From NCBI GenBank assembly GCA_007132385.1, contig SLOU01000039.1, positions 1 to 42,512 on the forward strand: a DNA stretch of 42,512 nt, written 5' to 3'. A program made the position numbers and the translations under genes. This DNA is from Balneolaceae bacterium. Its GTDB lineage: Bacteria > Bacteroidota > Rhodothermia > Balneolales > Balneolaceae. Below are positions 17,378 through 27,830 of this stretch, one piece after another (position 1 is the stretch's first letter; each line of letters opens with the position of its first letter). The notes under the pieces are model-generated. The model did no database searches. It saw only the letters and a list, made by a program, of their open reading frames with translations, and was not told where the DNA came from.

Positions 17378-18022
17378 ATGGCTCAAGTTTTTCCCAAGTG
17401 GGTAGACGACATCCCCAAACGGTTATTGATTGGTATTATTATTTTACTCAACGGGTTGGTATTTGGTGTCTGGTATTTTATGTCTCCGGAATACACCAAT
17501 GTGGGATACGCACCTGAGCAGCCTGTCCCCTTCAGCCATAAGCTTCATGTCAGTGAAATTGGCCTCGATTGCCAGTATTGCCATTCACAAGTATTCGACT
17601 CCCGTTATGCAAATATCCCGGCAACCGAAACCTGTATGACTTGTCACAGTCAAATTGCAACCGACAGTGAAGACCTCGCACCTGTTTTTGAAAGTTGGGA
17701 AACCGGTGAACCGCTCGAATGGATCCGGGTGCATAATCTGCCCGATTACGCTTATTTTAACCACAGCTCACACGTAAATGTAGGTGTTGGATGTGAAGCG
17801 TGCCATGGACGTGTCGACCGGATGGAAGTTGTTTTCCAGGCAGAACCGCTGAGCATGAGTTGGTGCCTCGATTGTCATCGGGAGCCCGAAAAGCATGTAC
17901 GGCCGGTGGAAGAGGTAACAACCATGGGATATCAGGTTGAAAACCAAATTGAAGCTGGAAGGGAATTGGTATCCAAACAGAATATCAATGCGCCACTTTA
18001 CTGCCAGAGTTGTCACTATTGA
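17378..18022 (+). CDS. actA: ACIII pentaheme cytochrome c subunit ActA
   Basis: 214 residues with one N-terminal membrane anchor (about 15-35) and five CxxCH heme-c sites at 65-69, 86-90, 139-143, 163-167 and 209-213. The last lies at the extreme C-terminus. Several extra histidines (FSHKLH, FNHSSH) can serve as distal ligands. This is the pentaheme subunit of alternative complex III, which oxidises quinol and passes electrons to a c-type cytochrome or directly to the oxidase. The hemes face the periplasm. It is the first gene of the act/cox cluster, separated from actB by a 92-nt gap that contains a strong hairpin. Confidence 0.96.
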   Translation: MAQVFPKWVDDIPKRLLIGIIILLNGLVFGVWYFMSPEYTNVGYAPEQPVPFSHKLHVSEIGLDCQYCHSQVFDSRYANIPATETCMTCHSQIATDSEDLAPVFESWETGEPLEWIRVHNLPDYAYFNHSSHVNVGVGCEACHGRVDRMEVVFQAEPLSMSWCLDCHREPEKHVRPVEEVTTMGYQVENQIEAGRELVSKQNINAPLYCQSCHY

Positions 18023-18114: not shown

Positions 18115-21100
18115 ATGAGCGATAAACTCAAACAAAATAGTTACTGGAAGAGCCTCCGAGAGCTCGCTGAGAATGAGGAGTATAAAAAATACGAGGAGCG
18201 TGAATTTCCGGAGAATGCAGCTGAAATGACCGATCAGGTCTCTCGCCGCAGCTTTTTGCGTGTTATGGGTGCCTCTATTGCACTTGCCGGTTTTGCGGCC
18301 TGCCGGAGACCGGTTCAGAAGATCATTCCATTTTCTGAAATGCCGGAAAATATGATACTCGGTGAACCCCTTTTTTACGCAACCGCTCATCCTTTCCAGG
18401 ATTCACTGAACGGGCTGCTTGTAAAAACCAATGAAGGCAGACCTACTAAAATTGAAGGAAACGAAGCTCATGAAGGTAGCGGTGGACGCACCAATATTTA
18501 TGACCAGGCTGAAATCATCGGTTTATATGATCCCGACAGATCCAGAACTGTTCTTAACAACGGAAATGAAGCTTCGAATGAAGATTTTATCGAATTCGCT
18601 TCAGGTCATTTTTCAGAGACCGATCAACGTATTCTTTTTATCAGTGAAGCCAACTCCTCACCTACCCTTCAACGGATTCGAAGCCAGGCTTTAGCCGACT
18701 ATCCGAACAGTGAATGGGTAACCTATGAAGCTTTCAATGATGAAAACCAGATAGAAGGTGCCGAAATTGCATTTGGCAGCCGGCTGCGTACGATCAATCA
18801 TTTTGATAATGCGGATGTCGTCGTAGCCCTTGACAGTGATTTCATGAACCCATACGGGCATAAAAACAGCGTGGAAAATGCCCGTAAACTGGCCGGAAGG
18901 CGTCAAATTCAGGGTACGGAAGACTCCCTGTCAAGAATCTATTCTATCGAAAGCACATTTACCAATACCGGTTCTTTTGCTGATCACAGGCTTCGCTTAA
19001 AAGCCTCCGAAATTCCTGCCTTTACCTTTGCCCTTGCTGCTGAACTCTCCGGATCTGTATCCGGGCTGGAAGCATTTAGCGGTGTCAGCAATGAATTCAG
19101 TGGTCACGATTGGGTCTCAATGCTTGCCCAAGATCTGCTTGAAAGCACCGGCTTGTCTCTGTTAACGGCCGGATATGGACAAATCCCGGCCGTGCATGCT
19201 GCCGTAGCTGCAATTAACGCGGCACTTGATAATATCGGAAGCACAGTCACCTACCACGACGTGCCGCATTTCGGTGAGGAAAATCAGCAAAACCGTTTTA
19301 TTGAAGCAGCTCGTGAACTGCAAAATGGCGAATATGATACCGTTGTATTGATCGGCAGCAACCCGGCATTTACCGCACCTTCAGACCTCCGGTTTGAGGA
19401 GGCTCTCGGGCAGGCCGAAACCGTCATTCATCTTTCGCATTATGTTGACGAAACCTCCCGAATTGCAGACTGGCACGTAAACCGGGCCCACTTTCTCGAA
19501 TCATGGGGTGACGGATACTCCTATACCGGTATCAGTTCGGTTATACAGCCTCAAATTCAGCCCTTGTTCGGAGGCTGGAGCGAGATTGAATTTTTGAATG
19601 CCATTGTATCCGGAGAGTGGCAGGACGGATATGAACTGGTACGTGAAACCTGGCAGGAGCAATACCCTGATGATTTTGAAGCACGCTGGCGGGAAATACT
19701 TCACGACGGTGTCGATACCGAGTTGAATTTTGAAGAAATCGAGGTCAGCCTCTCGGAAGATTTTGCCGGCCAAATTTCCGTCCACCTCGACACATCACCC
19801 GTTTCAGGCATCGAAATCGTCCTTAAACCCGATGCGAAGCTGTTTGATGGCCGGTATGCCAACAACAGCTGGCTGCAGGAACTGCCTGAACCCATGACCA
19901 AAATCACATGGGATAATGTAGCTCTGATGAGTCCGGCAACCGCCCGGGAACTCGGAATTCCGGACGAACGCAGATTAAAAGACAAAGATACGCCGGTCAT
20001 TCGCATTGATACCGGTGACTCAACCATTGAAATTGCTGCATGGGTACAGCCGGGGCATGCCGACGAATCTATTACACTGACAGTCGGTTACGGCAGGTCG
20101 GGGCTCGGGCGTGTAGCCGACGGTGTGGGTATTGATACATACCCCTTGCGAACCACGGAGGCACTCTATTACCGGCAGGCAGACGTATCGGCAACCGGAC
20201 GGAATTATGAAATTGCCTGTGTACAGGATCATCACAGCCTCGAAGGCCGAAGCATGATTCGCGAAGCAACCATGGATGAGTATCGGGAAAATCCGGGCTT
20301 TGCAACGTTTGAAGGAGTGTACGGATTCGAAGTGCCCGGAATGAGAGAAGCGCGTGAGAAGGGAGATGATCAACCCATTACCCTCTTCAATGCGAGGGAA
20401 TACCCGGATTACGAACCCCAATGGGGAATGGCGATCGACTTGAACGCCTGTTTTGGCTGCGGTGTGTGTACCATTGCCTGCCAGGCCGAGAATAATATCC
20501 CGGTGGTTGGCAAACGTGAGGTAGGAAGGCGCCGCATGCTGCACTGGATTCGAACCGACAGGTACTACGAAGGGGATGAAGATAATCCGCGGGCACTCCA
20601 TCAGCCGGTTCCCTGTATGCATTGTGAACTTGCCCCTTGTGAACAGGTTTGCCCCGTTGCCGCGACCGTACATAGTGACGACGGTATGAATCAGATGACC
20701 TACAATCGCTGTATTGGAACACGTTATTGTGCCAACAACTGCCCATATAAAGTACGACGGTTCAACTTTTTCAACTACTCACGGGAATTCCTGACAAACG
20801 GGGATGATCCGGAAGTTGTACAGATGGCCATGAATCCGGATGTGACCATCCGCTTCCGTGGTGTCATGGAAAAATGCACCTACTGCGTACAAAGAGTAAG
20901 CCGTGCAAAAACGAAATCCAGACAGGAAACCGGATCCAAAAAACCGGCTGACGGTGCCGTTCAAACCGCCTGCCAGCAGGCTTGCCCGGCAAATGCCATC
21001 TATTTCGGCGACCTTACCGATGAAAACAGTAACGTTTCCCGTGCAAAACAGAACGAGCGCAACTATGTGATGCTCGAAGAGCTGAACGTACGGCCGCGCA

Positions 21101-21147
21101 CCTCCTATTTAGCAAAAGTTCGAAATCCGAACCCGGAGATAGGATAG
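18115..21147 (+). CDS. actB: ACIII Fe-S subunit ActB (molybdopterin-oxidoreductase-like)
   Basis: 1010 residues. A twin-arginine signal SRRSFLRVMG (43-52) runs to FAAC, so Tat export and possibly lipidation at Cys63 are expected. Residues about 70-750 resemble the large molybdopterin oxidoreductase subunit, which in known ACIII binds no molybdenum cofactor. The C-terminal ferredoxin-like part carries four cysteine groups: 779/782/785/789, 834/837/842/846, 866/872/876 and 921/924/953/957. Together these fit the three [4Fe-4S] plus one [3Fe-4S] clusters of characterised ACIII. It acts on the periplasmic side, relaying electrons from quinol toward the ActA hemes. The ATG at 18115 was chosen over an out-of-frame ATG seven bases upstream. 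Confidence 0.96.
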   Translation: MSDKLKQNSYWKSLRELAENEEYKKYEEREFPENAAEMTDQVSRRSFLRVMGASIALAGFAACRRPVQKIIPFSEMPENMILGEPLFYATAHPFQDSLNGLLVKTNEGRPTKIEGNEAHEGSGGRTNIYDQAEIIGLYDPDRSRTVLNNGNEASNEDFIEFASGHFSETDQRILFISEANSSPTLQRIRSQALADYPNSEWVTYEAFNDENQIEGAEIAFGSRLRTINHFDNADVVVALDSDFMNPYGHKNSVENARKLAGRRQIQGTEDSLSRIYSIESTFTNTGSFADHRLRLKASEIPAFTFALAAELSGSVSGLEAFSGVSNEFSGHDWVSMLAQDLLESTGLSLLTAGYGQIPAVHAAVAAINAALDNIGSTVTYHDVPHFGEENQQNRFIEAARELQNGEYDTVVLIGSNPAFTAPSDLRFEEALGQAETVIHLSHYVDETSRIADWHVNRAHFLESWGDGYSYTGISSVIQPQIQPLFGGWSEIEFLNAIVSGEWQDGYELVRETWQEQYPDDFEARWREILHDGVDTELNFEEIEVSLSEDFAGQISVHLDTSPVSGIEIVLKPDAKLFDGRYANNSWLQELPEPMTKITWDNVALMSPATARELGIPDERRLKDKDTPVIRIDTGDSTIEIAAWVQPGHADESITLTVGYGRSGLGRVADGVGIDTYPLRTTEALYYRQADVSATGRNYEIACVQDHHSLEGRSMIREATMDEYRENPGFATFEGVYGFEVPGMREAREKGDDQPITLFNAREYPDYEPQWGMAIDLNACFGCGVCTIACQAENNIPVVGKREVGRRRMLHWIRTDRYYEGDEDNPRALHQPVPCMHCELAPCEQVCPVAATVHSDDGMNQMTYNRCIGTRYCANNCPYKVRRFNFFNYSREFLTNGDDPEVVQMAMNPDVTIRFRGVMEKCTYCVQRVSRAKTKSRQETGSKKPADGAVQTACQQACPANAIYFGDLTDENSNVSRAKQNERNYVMLEELNVRPRTSYLAKVRNPNPEIG

Positions 21148-21189: not shown

Positions 21190-22614
21190 ATGAGTAAAAC
21201 GTACGAATACGTACATGAGCCGGTTCTGGTCAAAGGGGATCACGACTTTAAAAGCATAACGGCTCTGGTAACCGATGTAAATTTGAGGCCAACACCTACA
21301 GGCTGGTACATCGCTTTTGGTATTGCCAACATCCTGTTATTGATCATGCTCGTTTCGATCGCGTACCTGATCTGGGAAGGAACTGGCATCTGGGGATTGA
21401 ATACTCCTGCCAACTGGGGATGGGCGATTATCAACTTTGTATGGTGGGTTGGGATCGGTCATGCCGGTACGTTAATCTCGGCGATTCTGTTTCTCTTCCG
21501 TCAGGATTGGCGAACAGCTATCAACCGCTTTGCTGAAGCGATGACTATTTTTGCAGTTATGTGTGCCGGAATTTTTCCCGCCATTCATGTCGGACGGATC
21601 TGGGTGATCTACTGGGTGTTTCCGATTCCCAATCAAATGGCGATGTGGCCAAACTTTAACAGCCCCCTGTTGTGGGACGTTTTTGCCGTATCCACCTATT
21701 TCACCGTCTCCGCCCTTTTCTGGTATGTCGGGCTTGTCCCTGATCTTGCCACAATTCGTGACCGGATCAAAAGCAAAATCGGTAAAGTACTCTACGGAAC
21801 CTTCGCTATGGGCTGGAGAGGCAGTAACCGGCAGTGGTGGACGTACGAAAAATCGTATATGATCCTGGCCGGACTGGCCACACCCCTGGTACTATCCGTG
21901 CACTCGGTTGTATCGTTCGACTTTGCCGTCTCCATCATTCCCGGGTGGCACACCACGATCTTCCCTCCCTATTTTGTTGCCGGAGCGATCTTCTCGGGTT
22001 TTGCCATGGTATTGACCCTCATGATTATCTGCCGGAAGATCTATAAAATGGAAGATATTATGACAATCGACCATATGGAGAAGATGAACATGATTCTCCT
22101 GGTTACGGGGATGATGGTCGGATTTGCCTATGCCATGGAATTTTTCATCGCATGGTACAGTGGTGTTGAATACGAAAAAGCTATTTTTATTCTCAGGGCC
22201 ACCGGTCCCTATGCCTGGGCATACTGGATTATGATTACCTGTAATGTATTGTCACCGCAGTTTTTCTGGGTCAAGAAGTTCCGCAGGAATGTGGCACTTA
22301 CGTTTGTCATTTCCATTGTTGTGAATATCGGAATGTGGTTCGAAAGGTTTGTTATTGCGGTAACATCACTTTCGACTGATTTTCTCCCCTCATCCTGGGG
22401 CTATTACACACCGACTTTGTGGGACGTACTGACCTATGTAGGTACTTTTGGCCTGTTCTTTACTTTTTTCCTGCTGTTTCTTCGGTTCCTGCCAATGGTT
22501 GCCGTTGCCGAAATCAAAAATATATTACCACAGGCTGATCCCCATAATTACGATGAAAATGGAAATTACATTCAACCAAAAGTAGAAGTACCGGAACCCA
22601 ACCGTGAATCATAA
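21190..22614 (+). CDS. actC: ACIII NrfD-like membrane subunit ActC
   Basis: 474 residues with about ten membrane helices of the NrfD/PsrC type, the integral quinol-binding subunit of alternative complex III. Seen: [20 protein letters not shown] around residues 77-96, [10 protein letters not shown], and a [12 protein letters not shown] segment rich in buried polar residues, with candidate quinol/proton residues His and Asp. The hydrophilic C-terminus (ending [10 protein letters not shown]) is cytoplasmic by family analogy. It lies 42 nt after actB and 36 nt before actD in the same transcript. Confidence 0.95.
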
Positions 22615-22650
22615 ACTCTGATATATCCGGAATAAACCACTGGATTGGAT

Positions 22651-23214
22651 ATGGATAAGGAAATGGAATCAACCAAATCAGACAAGAAACTTTTTGGCGT
22701 TCTCGCGGAATTCAGAAATCCCGGCGAACTCATTCAAATTGCACGAACTGTAAACAGGAACGGCTACCGTGATTATGATACCTACAGCCCCTTCCCGATT
22801 CACGGGATGGATAAAGCCATGGACCTGAAAAAATCGAAACTCGGCTGGGTCGTCTTTCTTCACGGGCTGCTTGGCTTTTCCGGTGCCATCGCCATGATCT
22901 ACTATATGTCTGTGGTTAACTATCCGCTTAATATCAGCGGTAAATCCCTGATGAATATTCCTGCCTGGGTCCCGGTCATTTTCGAGATGACAATTCTGTT
23001 ATCTGCATTCGGAGCAACCTTTGGAATGTTTTTCCTGAATGGACTGCCCAGGTTTAACCATCCGCTTTTTAACTCCAAACAATTTGAAAAAGTAACCGAC
23101 GACGGTTTTTTTGTCTGTATAGAAGCCGATGACCCTCAATTTGAAATTGAAAAAGTGCGCAAACTTTTCAAAGACCAAGGCGCAGTACATGTGGAAGAGG
23201 TCTATGATGATTAA
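22651..23214 (+). CDS. actD: ACIII subunit ActD (DUF3341)
   Basis: About 187 residues of the DUF3341 family. The first part begins LFGVLAEFRNPGELI and continues to YSPFPIHGMDKAM, the usual ActD pattern. Two membrane helices follow (LGWVVFLHGLLGFSGAIAMI and a second before LPRFNHPLF), then a small ferredoxin-like C-terminal domain (DDGFFVCIEADDPQF). It is a structural membrane subunit without cofactors. I chose ATG 22651; a TTG two codons earlier and an ATG at 22663 are alternatives. Its 3' end overlaps the likely actE start. Confidence 0.93.
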   Translation: MDKEMESTKSDKKLFGVLAEFRNPGELIQIARTVNRNGYRDYDTYSPFPIHGMDKAMDLKKSKLGWVVFLHGLLGFSGAIAMIYYMSVVNYPLNISGKSLMNIPAWVPVIFEMTILLSAFGATFGMFFLNGLPRFNHPLFNSKQFEKVTDDGFFVCIEADDPQFEIEKVRKLFKDQGAVHVEEVYDD

Positions 23215-24226
23215 AGGAAATCCTAGCAACATGAATGTTTCGAACACGTACAGATACCCTCTGCTCAGTGTGCTGATACTGGCATTTGCCATGGTATCGT
23301 GCCGGGGACAACTGTCCGATAAGCCACCCATTCATCCACAGCAGAATATGTATTTCCAGGATCGATACAATGCACAACAGGAAAATCTGTTTTTCGAAGA
23401 CCGGCGCGCGATGAGAACACCTGTGGAAGGAACCGTTGCAAGAGGCAACCTCAGAGATAATTTAGAATTACATGAAGGTACTTATGCCGATGGTGAGTTT
23501 TTGGATGAAAATCCGATGGAAATCACCGAAGAATTTTTATATCGCGGAAAAGACCGGTATGACATCTACTGTACCATGTGCCATGGCGGAGTTGGCGACG
23601 GTCAGGGAATTATCATGACAGGGGAATACGGTTATGTGCCTGCTCCTTCATTTCATGAAGAACGTATTCGTGAAATGCCCGATGGAGAGATCTACTCCGC
23701 TATTCACAATGGTGTCAGAACGATGCCCTCTTACAGGAACCAGCTTCCTGTTGAAGATCGTTGGGCGGTTGTGGCTTACGTGCGCGCATTGCAGCAAAGT
23801 CAGAATGTACCGGAGGATATCCTCAGAGAGTATGACATAGATATTGCTGCCCTTGACCAGGCCTATATACAGGAACAGGAAGCCATTGCGGAGCTGGAAG
23901 AACAAAGAGTCCCTGATGATGAAGGCGAAGTCAGCGTTGAACGTGGCGAACAGCTTTTCACACAACAGGGTTGCCAGGCGTGCCATTCAACAGACGGTAC
24001 TGAAATGATCGGGCCTAGCATGGCCGGACTTTTTGAAAGTGACGTTGAGCTTGATGACGGTTCCACTGTAACTGCTGACGAAGATTACTTATACGAGTCT
24101 ATTGTGAACCCGCAGGACCAAATTACAGCAGGATTCGATCCGGTTATGCCGGCTTTCGGACATCTTTCTGACGACGAGATCCATTCCCTGATCGAGTATA
24201 TCAAATCTTTAGCTGATAACGACTGA
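23207..24226 (+). CDS. actE: ACIII cytochrome c subunit ActE, diheme form
   Basis: About 339 residues. A lipoprotein signal ends at MVSC (Cys32 with this start). The first heme-c domain has CTMCHGG (122-126), the usual ActE monoheme domain (with PSFHEERI...MPSY and axial Met candidates). After an acidic Glu-rich linker, a second domain begins with CQACH (256-260) and ends FDPVMPAFGHLSDDEIHSL. This second domain resembles the cytochrome c domain at the end of CoxB, encoded 3.5 kb downstream. Known ACIII ActE has one heme, so this copy looks like a fusion with an extra electron carrier. I chose ATG 23207 (GAGG six bases upstream, slightly overlapping actD); ATG 23231 is possible. Confidence 0.9.
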   Translation: MIKGNPSNMNVSNTYRYPLLSVLILAFAMVSCRGQLSDKPPIHPQQNMYFQDRYNAQQENLFFEDRRAMRTPVEGTVARGNLRDNLELHEGTYADGEFLDENPMEITEEFLYRGKDRYDIYCTMCHGGVGDGQGIIMTGEYGYVPAPSFHEERIREMPDGEIYSAIHNGVRTMPSYRNQLPVEDRWAVVAYVRALQQSQNVPEDILREYDIDIAALDQAYIQEQEAIAELEEQRVPDDEGEVSVERGEQLFTQQGCQACHSTDGTEMIGPSMAGLFESDVELDDGSTVTADEDYLYESIVNPQDQITAGFDPVMPAFGHLSDDEIHSLIEYIKSLADND

Positions 24227-24255: not shown

Positions 24256-25455
24256 ATGGCGACAAGTAGCTCAAAAATAACTGATTCGGTTGAATTTCCA
24301 TCCGGAATCGACACCTCCAAAACCCTTTTTGGTGTAGGGATTGTCGGACTCATTGCGAGTTTTGTCGGATATTTCCTGAATCACGAACAATTTTTCTTTT
24401 CATATCTGACCAGCTACACGTTTTTCACCAGCTTTGCACTGGCTGCACTATTCCTGGTGATGATACACCACATTACTCGATCATCCTGGGGAACCGTCTT
24501 GCGCCGTATACCCGAGGCTTTTTCATCCAACATCTGGATCTGGGCAATCTTTTTTATTCCTGTCCTGATCGGAATGGGTACACTGTACTCCTGGACCAAT
24601 CCCGATTATGTTACCGGGGACCCGATCATGGAAGGCAAAATTCCGTACCTGAATGAACCCTTCTTTATCATCCGGCAGTTTATCTACTTTGGGATTTGGG
24701 GTTGGCTGGGTTACAAGCTGCACAAGATTTCCGTGGATATGGACAGGACCAACGATTGGGGCATGACCACATTGCTGCGAAAAATCAGTGCTCCCGGTAT
24801 CCTAATATTTTCATTTACATTGGCCTTTGCAAGTTTCGATTGGCTGATGTCGCTCGATGCCCATTGGTTTTCAACAATTTTCGGTGTCTATTTCTTTGCC
24901 ATGAGCTTCCAGGCATTCTTCCCGATGATGATCCTGCTGATTTACTGGATGCATAAACGAGGAATTCTGGAAAATACCATTAGAAAAGTGCATATTTACG
25001 ATCTGGGAGCCTGGTTTTTTGCATTTACCGTTTTCTATGCCTACATCGCATTTTCACAATTTATCCTGATTTACTATGCCAATATTCCCGAGGCAACACT
25101 TTGGTATTACCACCGTCTGGAAGGAAGCTGGGCCATTATCTCCTACAGCCTGATATTCGGGCGATTTGCCATACCCTTTATTCTGCTGCTAAATCGGGAT
25201 ACCAAACATAATCCGAGAATACTGATCGGCACCTCAATACTGGTACTGGTCATGCATTTTATCGAACTCTACTGGATTGCGATGCCGATATTGGATCACC
25301 ACGGTATGAGTATCAGCTGGATGGACGTAACAACGATATTCGGCCTGGGAGGAATCTTCTTCGGCCTGTTTTTCAAGAAATTGAAAAAACACAAGATCGT
25401 GCCGGTGAACGATCCGAAACTTGCAGATTCTCTGGCAAAGCATTATCACCAATAA
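24256..25455 (+). CDS. actF: ACIII membrane subunit ActF
   Basis: 399 residues with about ten membrane helices, the second large integral subunit of alternative complex III and a distant relative of ActC. Features: FASFDWLMSLDAHWFSTIFGVYFF (about 192-215), SFQAFFPMMILLIYWM, YIAFSQFILIYYANIPE and a lysine-rich cytoplasmic tail. The FDW/DAHW motif is typical of this subunit in Bacteroidota. ActF is thought to help with quinol binding or proton movement. It is 29 nt after actE and 25 nt before the HTH-membrane protein. Confidence 0.95.
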   Translation: MATSSSKITDSVEFPSGIDTSKTLFGVGIVGLIASFVGYFLNHEQFFFSYLTSYTFFTSFALAALFLVMIHHITRSSWGTVLRRIPEAFSSNIWIWAIFFIPVLIGMGTLYSWTNPDYVTGDPIMEGKIPYLNEPFFIIRQFIYFGIWGWLGYKLHKISVDMDRTNDWGMTTLLRKISAPGILIFSFTLAFASFDWLMSLDAHWFSTIFGVYFFAMSFQAFFPMMILLIYWMHKRGILENTIRKVHIYDLGAWFFAFTVFYAYIAFSQFILIYYANIPEATLWYYHRLEGSWAIISYSLIFGRFAIPFILLLNRDTKHNPRILIGTSILVLVMHFIELYWIAMPILDHHGMSISWMDVTTIFGLGGIFFGLFFKKLKKHKIVPVNDPKLADSLAKHYHQ

Positions 25456-25480: not shown

Positions 25481-26029
25481 ATGAGTAACGAAAAGAAACC
25501 ATTCAGTCGCGAATTTAAGGCCAAAGTTGTCCTTGAAGTGGTATCAGGGGAACACATTAACCCTCATGAAGTTGCGGAAAAATATGACATAAATCCTTCG
25601 GATATCCTTGCCTGGGCACATGAAATGGATATTTCGGACGTTAACCTTGACAATCTGTCGAAAGCTGTTGAGGGCTCCGGTCAGGAGTTGGAAAATGAAG
25701 TAGAAATCGAAATAAAAAACGATACACTTGCTTCAGAAATAGAATACGGGGTTACTTTTGACTATCTCGACATGAAGAAGCTGACATTTTGGTCAGTCTT
25801 CGGAACCGTGTTGGTAATCCTTATTATTCAATCTCTTATCTGGGTCTATGGTTACAGCAGTGACCAGACAACCCGGCAAGTTCTTGAAGGAAGTGAATAC
25901 CGTGAAATCAATCAGTTAAAACTTCGCGACGAGGAAACGTTATCTTCATTCGGAGTTGTTGACCTTGAAAACGGAATCTACCGGATGCCGATCGATACTG
26001 TCATCACTCGTATGGCACAACAAGATTAA
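25481..26029 (+). CDS. IS3-type HTH fused to a single-span membrane protein of the respiratory cluster
   Basis: 182 residues. Residues about 5-50 (FSREFKAKVVLEVVSGEHIN and on to NPSDILAWAHEM) look like the helix-turn-helix of IS3-family OrfA transposase proteins. A hydrophilic acidic linker follows (about 55-98), then one transmembrane helix (about 101-123), then a ~60-residue periplasmic tail ending SSFGVVDLENGIYRMPIDTV. That tail resembles small proteins of cox/ACIII clusters with a YGWVD-x-GIVRIPID pattern; this is recall, not a search. No catalytic DDE domain, no second transposase frame and no terminal repeats are present, so it is not an insertion sequence. Set between actF and the Sco gene with 25- and 29-nt gaps, it probably serves the oxidase or ACIII as a subunit or assembly factor, and the HTH may be exapted. 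Confidence 0.8.
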   Translation: MSNEKKPFSREFKAKVVLEVVSGEHINPHEVAEKYDINPSDILAWAHEMDISDVNLDNLSKAVEGSGQELENEVEIEIKNDTLASEIEYGVTFDYLDMKKLTFWSVFGTVLVILIIQSLIWVYGYSSDQTTRQVLEGSEYREINQLKLRDEETLSSFGVVDLENGIYRMPIDTVITRMAQQD

Positions 26030-26058: not shown

Positions 26059-26892
26059 ATGTATAAGGCACTGAAAGCCGTCAGTATAATGATTTCAGTG
26101 TTTCTATTTGCCGGAGCAGCAGAAGCGCAATTGAATCAGAAACCGGCTATTTTGGAAGACATTGGCGTTGACGAAAAGCTTGGAGATCAGATTCCGCTGG
26201 ATGCCGAATTTACGAACTCCGAGGGTGAAATTGTGACTATAGCCGAACTTATGATTGACGGCAAACCGGTGCTGTTGAACCCGCTTTATTATGACTGTCC
26301 GATGCTTTGCAACCTGGTTGTTGAAGGAGTTTATAATGTTGTGGAAGAATTACAATGGTCACCCGGTAAGGATTATACCATAATCTCATACAGCATCGAT
26401 CCTGATGAAAATTATAGACTGGCAGCAGAAAGTAAAAATCGATATATGAATGAATTAAACCGGGCTGGTTCTGAAGATGGCTGGCACTTTTTAACCGGAT
26501 CGGAAGAACAGATCCGGAAACTGAGTGAAGCGACCGGTTTCAGGTATATGAAAGATGAACGTATCGGAGAATATATCCATCCCGCTGCGATCATGTTTCT
26601 TAGCCCCGAAGGTGTCATTACACGCTACCTCTACGGAACCCGGTTTTCCGAATTCGACCTTAGAAATGCCCTTTATGAATCAGCGGACGGACAGATCGGT
26701 TCCACGATTGAGCGAGCTGTCCTTTACTGCTTTACCTACGATCCGGCATCTGAGAGTTACGTGCCGGTTGCCATGAATATCATGAAACTTGGCGGGTTGG
26801 CTACCATGATTATTCTGGGTATATTTTTGGGTCTTTTTTGGAGAAAAGAACGACGATCCAACCACTCACAAAAACTTGATTTTCAGGAATGA
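26059..26892 (+). CDS. Sco1/SenC-family copper chaperone
   Basis: 277 residues: signal peptide (1-23), thioredoxin-like domain, and a C-terminal membrane helix (about 242-260) before a basic tail. The copper site is visible as CPMLC (Cys80 and Cys84) and His174 in EYIHPAAIMF. Sco proteins deliver copper to, or reduce the cysteines of, the CuA site in oxidase subunit II. CoxB directly follows: the stop of this gene overlaps the coxB start in ATGA (26889-26892). The C-terminal anchor is unusual relative to the classical N-terminal anchor of Sco1 but is common in this group. Confidence 0.93.
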   Translation: MYKALKAVSIMISVFLFAGAAEAQLNQKPAILEDIGVDEKLGDQIPLDAEFTNSEGEIVTIAELMIDGKPVLLNPLYYDCPMLCNLVVEGVYNVVEELQWSPGKDYTIISYSIDPDENYRLAAESKNRYMNELNRAGSEDGWHFLTGSEEQIRKLSEATGFRYMKDERIGEYIHPAAIMFLSPEGVITRYLYGTRFSEFDLRNALYESADGQIGSTIERAVLYCFTYDPASESYVPVAMNIMKLGGLATMIILGIFLGLFWRKERRSNHSQKLDFQE

Positions 26893-27830
26893 ACAGACTT
26901 AGTGACTTTATGCTCCCTGATGCCCGCAGTACATTTGCGGGAGATGTGGATGCACTGTTTAATTTTATCAATGTGGTTAGTCTGATTTTACTGATCGGCA
27001 TCACCATTGCCATTATCTACTTTGCTTACAAGTACAGAAGAAAATCGGAAGACGAAACAACACCACTAATTACCCATAACAGCAAGCTGGAGATTACCTG
27101 GTCGGTGATTCCCCTTATCCTTGTGATTATTGTCTTCGGATGGGGATATAACGGTTATCTGAACCTGACGACAGCTCCTGATGACGCCTATGAAATCCGT
27201 GTCGTTGGTAAATCCTGGCTTTGGGAGTTTCATTACGATACCGGGTTTGTTAGTGTAAACGAACTGCATGTTCCGGCCAATCAACCGGTCAAGCTTATAT
27301 TAAGTTCGGATGATGTGATCCATTCTCTGTTTATTCCTGAATTCCGGGTAAAAATGGATGCCCTTCCCAACCGCTACACCTCCCTCTGGTTTGAAGCAAC
27401 CGAACCCGGGGAAATGACCATCTACTGTACAGAATACTGCGGAAGCGCGCACTCCAATATGCTGGCTGACCTGTATGTTCATTCCCAGGAAGATTTTCAA
27501 ACCTGGCTTGAAACGGCTGATGCAGTCGATGAAACACTTTCTCCTGCAGAACTGGGACAACAACTTGTTCAACGGCAGGGATGCCTCGCCTGTCATTCCC
27601 TGGATGGTTCCACACTGCAAGGCCCTTCATTTGAGGGCATTTTCGGCCGGGACCGGGAACTTCAGGACGGATCTGTTGTAACGATCGATGAAAATTATTT
27701 GCGACAATCCATTATTGAGCCGAATACACAAGTAGCTGCGGGTTTCCCGGCTATTATGCCATCCTATGCCGGTTCTCTTGATGACCGACAAATTGATGCG
27801 ATTATCGAATATCTTAAAACTCTAGATTGA
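26889..27830 (+). CDS. coxB: caa3-type oxidase subunit II with fused cytochrome c
   Basis: 313 residues. Two membrane helices (about 26-47 and 70-88) precede the cupredoxin domain. The CuA ligands are all present: His145, then [12 protein letters not shown] with Cys180, Glu182, Cys184, His188 and Met191. A C-terminal cytochrome c domain follows (CLACH 232-236, axial Met290 in PAIMPSY). This architecture defines a caa3 enzyme, in which the tethered cytochrome takes electrons, here presumably straight from ACIII. The cytochrome domain is a close relative of the second heme domain of ActE. Translationally coupled to the Sco gene by ATGA; coxA begins 1 nt after its stop. Confidence 0.97.

Follow-up and report, generated by a model that had tools for sequence, protein, structure and literature searches.

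The locus studied here raises the question of why a membrane protein encoded within a gene cluster for the respiratory alternative complex III (ACIII) and an oxidase begins with a helix-turn-helix (HTH) of the transposase type, and what this domain does there. In the window, i.e., the whole 42,512-nucleotide stretch of Balneolaceae DNA that was analysed, the gene lies between actF and sco (Table 1). A sequence-only reading had described it as a one-helix protein of the ACIII/oxidase cluster to which an IS3 OrfA-type HTH is fused, with gaps of 25-29 nt on its two sides and with no transposase catalytic domain. All of this was confirmed, as the domain is linked to OrfA by a profile match (E 3e-12), a single transmembrane (TM) segment follows, the gaps are 25 nt to actF and 29 nt to sco, and the window protein has no catalytic transposase domain. 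The protein also has no cofactor motifs (zero CxxCH and zero Cys). Neither an OrfB/DDE integrase neighbour nor a mobile multi-copy element was found, the neighbours being actF and sco and the gene being single-copy in its genome. Among the 142 loci examined, actF stands directly before the gene in 141 and sco directly after it in 138. An assembly chimera was ruled out by the identical junction in dozens of independent assemblies, and the family-wide occurrence described below excludes a recent chance fusion confined to a single genome.

Table 1 Features of the ACIII-oxidase cluster and of the actG product in the window.
Feature	Position	Strand	Residues	Remark
actA	17378-18022			ACIII-oxidase cluster
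actB	18115-21147			ACIII-oxidase cluster
actC	21190-22614			ACIII-oxidase cluster
actD	~22645-23214			ACIII-oxidase cluster
actE	within 23129-24226			ACIII-oxidase cluster
actF	24256-25455	+		immediately upstream of actG
actG	25481-26029	+		182-aa ActG with N-terminal HTH domain; ATG at 25481, TAA ends at 26029
IS3 OrfA-type HTH	25493..25630	+	5-50	model helices 10-22, 28-35, 39-48
recognition-helix region NPSDILAWAHEMD	25592..25630	+	38-50	OrfA basic DNA-contact residues lost, acidic
variable acidic linker	25631..25771	+	51-97	evolves fastest; pLDDT of the model falls to 44 mid-linker
single TM segment	25784..25846	+	102-122	predicted N-in/C-out
conserved ActG motif FGVVDLENGIYRMPIDTVI	25949..26005	+	157-175	beta hairpin followed by a helix in the model; predicted periplasmic
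sco	26059-26892	+		immediately downstream of actG; oxidase genes then follow
coxB	26889-27830			same cluster as actE

Judged by its position at the locus and by its matches to the ActG proteins of Rhodothermus marinus and Chloroflexus, the window protein is ActG, an optional one-helix subunit of ACIII, with an extra domain added at its N-terminus. ActG has been described as the seventh, non-universal, one-helix subunit of the complex; it was confirmed in R. marinus by mass fingerprinting, and its density is not visible in the R. marinus cryo-EM map (PMC5928083). In Chloroflexus, actG also adjoins actF (PMC3150298). At one of our loci (L132, genome G167), ActF is identical to R. marinus ActF (PDB 6f0k_F) over all 417 aligned residues, and the 130-aa ORF between actF and sco was therefore taken as R. 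marinus ActG; this ORF matches the family profile (6.4e-15) and aligns with the family via the C-terminal motif. Using the ActG core profile, the best PDB match was Chloroflexus aurantiacus ActG (8k9e_G), which is weak and very distant (E 0.0028). When the single window protein was used as the query, the PDB search gave chance matches only and the genome contig search was empty; an alignment-based query of the contigs succeeded. Orthologues were present in 56 of the 59 Balneolaceae and other Balneolales genomes tested, and the long-form profile matched 202 of the 245 genomes of the class, a few weak matches among which may be OrfA and not ActG. ActG was not found in G020, G030 (g21) and some g5 genomes, which are small Balneolaceae genomes (1.4-2.7 Mb). 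The "respiratory-cluster membrane protein" of the sequence-only reading is thus refined to a known ACIII subunit in a new domain variant, whose function we infer. Searches of an open-access body of literature yielded no account of an HTH within ActG.

The origin of the added domain was traced by profile comparison. Residues 5-50 of the window protein score 18.5 bits against Pfam HTH_Tnp_1, under the curated cut-off of 24.1, and a fold search with the whole model, which returned mostly HTH proteins, gave none with E below 0.001 and is weak support only. Both results would fit a three-helix domain of other descent whose likeness to the OrfA HTH is accidental. Across the family, however, HTH_Tnp_1 is matched by 17 of 26 members (best 2.3e-7), and a scan covering Balneolaceae placed many ActG orthologues above the cut-off, with up to 36 bits. 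Particularly, an ActG-HTH profile built from 64 sequences matched two genuine IS3-type OrfA proteins of Balneolaceae with E 3e-12 and 3e-10. The alignment is colinear over residues 1-57 from the initiator Met for the former and over residues 5-58 for the latter, and runs past the HTH to a shared A-x-x-F ending. Both OrfA genes are followed by an overlapping ORF with an integrase-type sequence, identified by eye from conserved motifs; overlapping orfA and orfB genes are the classic IS3 layout. Chance resemblance is refuted in practice by the orthologue Pfam scores and the OrfA profile match, and we consider it extremely improbable. The AlphaFold2 model contains three helices with a pLDDT of 90-96 across the HTH. 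As shown by the alignments, the HTH domain of an IS3-type OrfA, comprising its initial ~57 residues, was in all likelihood added to ActG in the ancestor of Balneolaceae, and we are almost certain that the protein is an ActG with an OrfA-derived HTH.

The fusion is widespread in the family. Long forms with the HTH were counted in 71 Balneolaceae genomes and short forms in 12, i.e., in 71 of 83 scorable genomes, the counts being made by hand from profile-match spans and two further Balneolaceae genomes being unscorable. Homologues outside the window's genome thus do not always lack the domain, but the conservation across Balneolota/Rhodothermota act operons that the sequence-only reading had raised does not extend beyond Balneolaceae: the HTH is absent from ActG of other Balneolales families, Rhodothermales, KSB1, Zixibacteria and Neomarinimicrobiota. 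In a quick tree of ActF and Sco (101 loci), all HTH forms fall inside Balneolaceae, and the HTH label requires 5 changes, compared with 31 in shuffles; the change counts alone cannot separate gain from loss, and the outgroups give the direction. The simplest reading is one HTH gain at the Balneolaceae stem followed by several losses, or losses and one regain in genus g10. Two loci of this genus (L019 and L024) carry the HTH, by retention or by regain.

Some Balneolaceae short forms retain the first ~15 residues, which resemble the HTH start. This N-terminal scar reaches the limit of 200 shuffles in L022, L025 and L141, is weaker in L026 and L144, and is not significant by the same test in L029, L077 and L081; short forms from outside Balneolaceae have no resemblance to the HTH start. 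Because the scars occur in short forms of the family but not in those outside it, comparison of the N-termini points to internal deletion as the probable origin of the Balneolaceae short forms. Since several lineages lost the HTH yet kept ActG, the domain is apparently dispensable for ActG. HTH-less ActG, in effect a natural knock-out of the domain, was seen in G005, G023, G033 (g6), G012 (g13), G031/G078 (g4), G002 (g3), G081 (g10) and g5 genomes, some of which bear an apparent N-terminal scar. Gracilimonas amylolytica without the domain and G. mengyeensis with it form a natural pair.

Another subunit of the cluster has also changed. The window ActE is a diheme protein: a second cytochrome c domain makes up its last ~105 residues and shares 45% identity (E 5e-31) with the cytochrome c domain at the C-terminus of CoxB from the same cluster. 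In a quick domain tree, a single branch with a support of 94 divides the ActE copies from those of CoxB. All 45 Balneolaceae ActE proteins found have two CxxCH, and those of other Balneolales and outgroups have one, which dates the remodelling of ActE to roughly the stem at which ActG changed.

With regard to the state of the captured domain, its fold and its DNA-binding face have had different fates. Pooled over 12 close pairs, dN/dS was 0.14 for HTH residues 8-50 (bootstrap 0.09-0.23), compared with 0.33 in the linker and 0.09 in the core, and the value of 0.14 demonstrates that the HTH domain is maintained by purifying selection. The conserved HTH residues are fold positions (an aromatic residue at 8, K13, A20, L31, A32, V37, I42 and W45), and the hydrophobic core together with W45 is nearly invariant. 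In contrast, no basic DNA-contacting recognition helix is found in the ActG HTH. Position 46 is K/R in 0% of ActG and 70% of OrfA sequences, position 44 is K/R in 9% and 70%, and position 48 is acidic in 72% and 20%, respectively. Residues 38-50 carry a mean net charge of -1.95 in ActG (3% positive) compared with +2.3 in OrfA, with a p value of 1e-6 that is only indicative, the sequences being related and not independent. Over the first ~55 residues the net charge is -2.7 in ActG and +3.4 in OrfA, and the N-terminal arm of ActG is less basic than that of OrfA. Halophile proteins are acidic in general, but the control for this comparison was OrfA proteins from Balneolaceae, which stay basic; because they come from the same bacterial family, general halophile acidity does not explain the acidic ActG HTH. 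The comparison shows that the ActG HTH has retained its fold and lost its basic DNA-binding surface.

The remainder of the protein places this domain with respect to the membrane. The motif FGVVDxExGIYRIPID is conserved C-terminal to the TM segment and is predicted to be periplasmic. As ActG has no signal peptide and K/R is slightly richer on the N-side of the TM segment (1.95 vs 1.08), an N-in/C-out topology is predicted, in which the HTH end would be cytosolic and the C-terminal motif periplasmic. For the exapted, cytosol-facing HTH that the sequence-only reading had proposed, exaptation is supported, and the cytosolic side is predicted from topology only. In several Rhodothermales families, ActG is ~250-275 aa long and carries in place of the HTH an N-terminal domain of ~95 aa (L126-L130, L133, L134, L136, L210, L212, L220), whose sequence is plainly unlike the HTH; L088 also belongs to the ActGs with such an N-terminal domain. 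The domain has the Ig/Fn3-type pattern V-x-F-x-W ... Y-x-L-Q-V-A ... Y-x-W-R-V; its Pfam matches are all weak (fn3 0.004 as the best, Ig_Rha78A_N 0.0055 and SusE 0.0066), its best PDB match is 0.33, and its single-sequence model is poor (pLDDT about 30-45), so the domain is only provisionally called Ig/Fn3-like. It precedes the TM helix without a signal peptide, and a cytosolic beta-sandwich would be unusual. The predicted cytosolic end of ActG thus appears as a site of domain exchange, which bears nothing, an HTH or an Ig/Fn3-like domain, and the receipt of different domains in related lineages argues for a role in interaction.

For the function of the HTH, we propose that ActG would be an accessory single-helix subunit of ACIII and its caa3-type oxidase partner, probably anchored to the complex by the TM helix and the periplasmic GVVD-x-PID hairpin/helix. 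The acidic cytosolic HTH fold may then work as a module for docking or stabilisation through protein-protein contacts and would not act as a DNA-binding switch; candidate docking sites lie on ActC/ActF at their cytosolic faces, on the oxidase, or between supercomplexes. We lean towards docking as the function of the HTH, and on balance we favour the whole statement, namely ActG with a captured OrfA HTH that is reused as a cytosolic docking or stabilising module. The sequence-only reading had offered both a docking surface and a membrane-bound DNA-binding regulator, and the former fits better. A membrane-tethered regulator of the ToxR/CadC type, in which the periplasmic and membrane parts sense the state of ACIII and promoter binding falls to the cytosolic HTH, would agree with the predicted layout of HTH, linker, one TM and periplasmic domain and with the homology of the HTH to a DNA-binding domain. 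However, the recognition helix is acidic and the N-terminal arm has lost basic character relative to OrfA, the HTH was lost several times without loss of actG, the Ig/Fn3-like domain replaces it at the same end in relatives, and it is of the OrfA type and not winged. Because the basic face is lost and another domain is found at the same end, a docking module that does not bind DNA is favoured, and the regulator is improbable. A point against docking is that DNA binding is occasionally retained by an acidic HTH. It could be imagined that the ActG HTH, via non-canonical DNA contacts, either links the ACIII-oxidase supercomplexes to the nucleoid or to DNA, or relays their state to transcription; we rate this speculation as slightly more doubtful still.

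A serious rival to docking is a constrained passenger, i.e., a piece of OrfA that was fused in an IS event and persists by weak structural constraint only, which would merely keep it from misfolding, with no dedicated role. The repeated loss of the HTH is also compatible with such a near-neutral passenger, as are the deletion scars and the surface residues, which are free to drift. On the other hand, a tolerated piece would hardly be expected to remain in most genera of the family, with a dN/dS little above that of the core and with the near-invariant core and W45 described above. We therefore consider the passenger unlikely, although clearly less so than the regulator, and retain the docking module as the preferred reading.

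In ActG, a piece of a selfish element has apparently settled as a lasting component of an energy-converting complex, and the case is phylogenetically placed and widely replicated. The natural paired losses, as in Gracilimonas, make the role of the HTH testable. In addition, ActG, which has been enigmatic, gains a handle from the exchange of its cytosolic domains.

Compared with known systems, the protein combines features of several. ToxR/CadC-type regulators have a cytosolic N-terminal HTH, one TM and a periplasmic domain, and their HTH is basic and winged. ActG shares this layout, as far as its predicted topology goes, but its DNA face is lost and its periplasmic part belongs to a respiratory-complex subunit. 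With IS3 OrfA (Pfam HTH_Tnp_1; PDB 2jn6 Cgl2762), ActG shares the HTH sequence and fold, and with Balneolaceae OrfA also the colinearity from the start to residue 57; unlike OrfA, it has no OrfB/DDE partner, is membrane-anchored, has an acidic recognition helix and occurs as a single copy at a fixed locus. Chloroflexus aurantiacus ActG (8k9e chain G) matches the core profile via its C-terminal LNSYG...HIPIDRAMDLI; in contrast to the window protein, it has 112 aa and no HTH. R. marinus ActG (PMC5928083) is encoded at the same position, has a single TM helix and the C-terminal GVVD...YRxPIDxA motif, and matches the profile significantly, but it has no domain before the TM helix, where the window ActG adds a 55-aa HTH and a linker.
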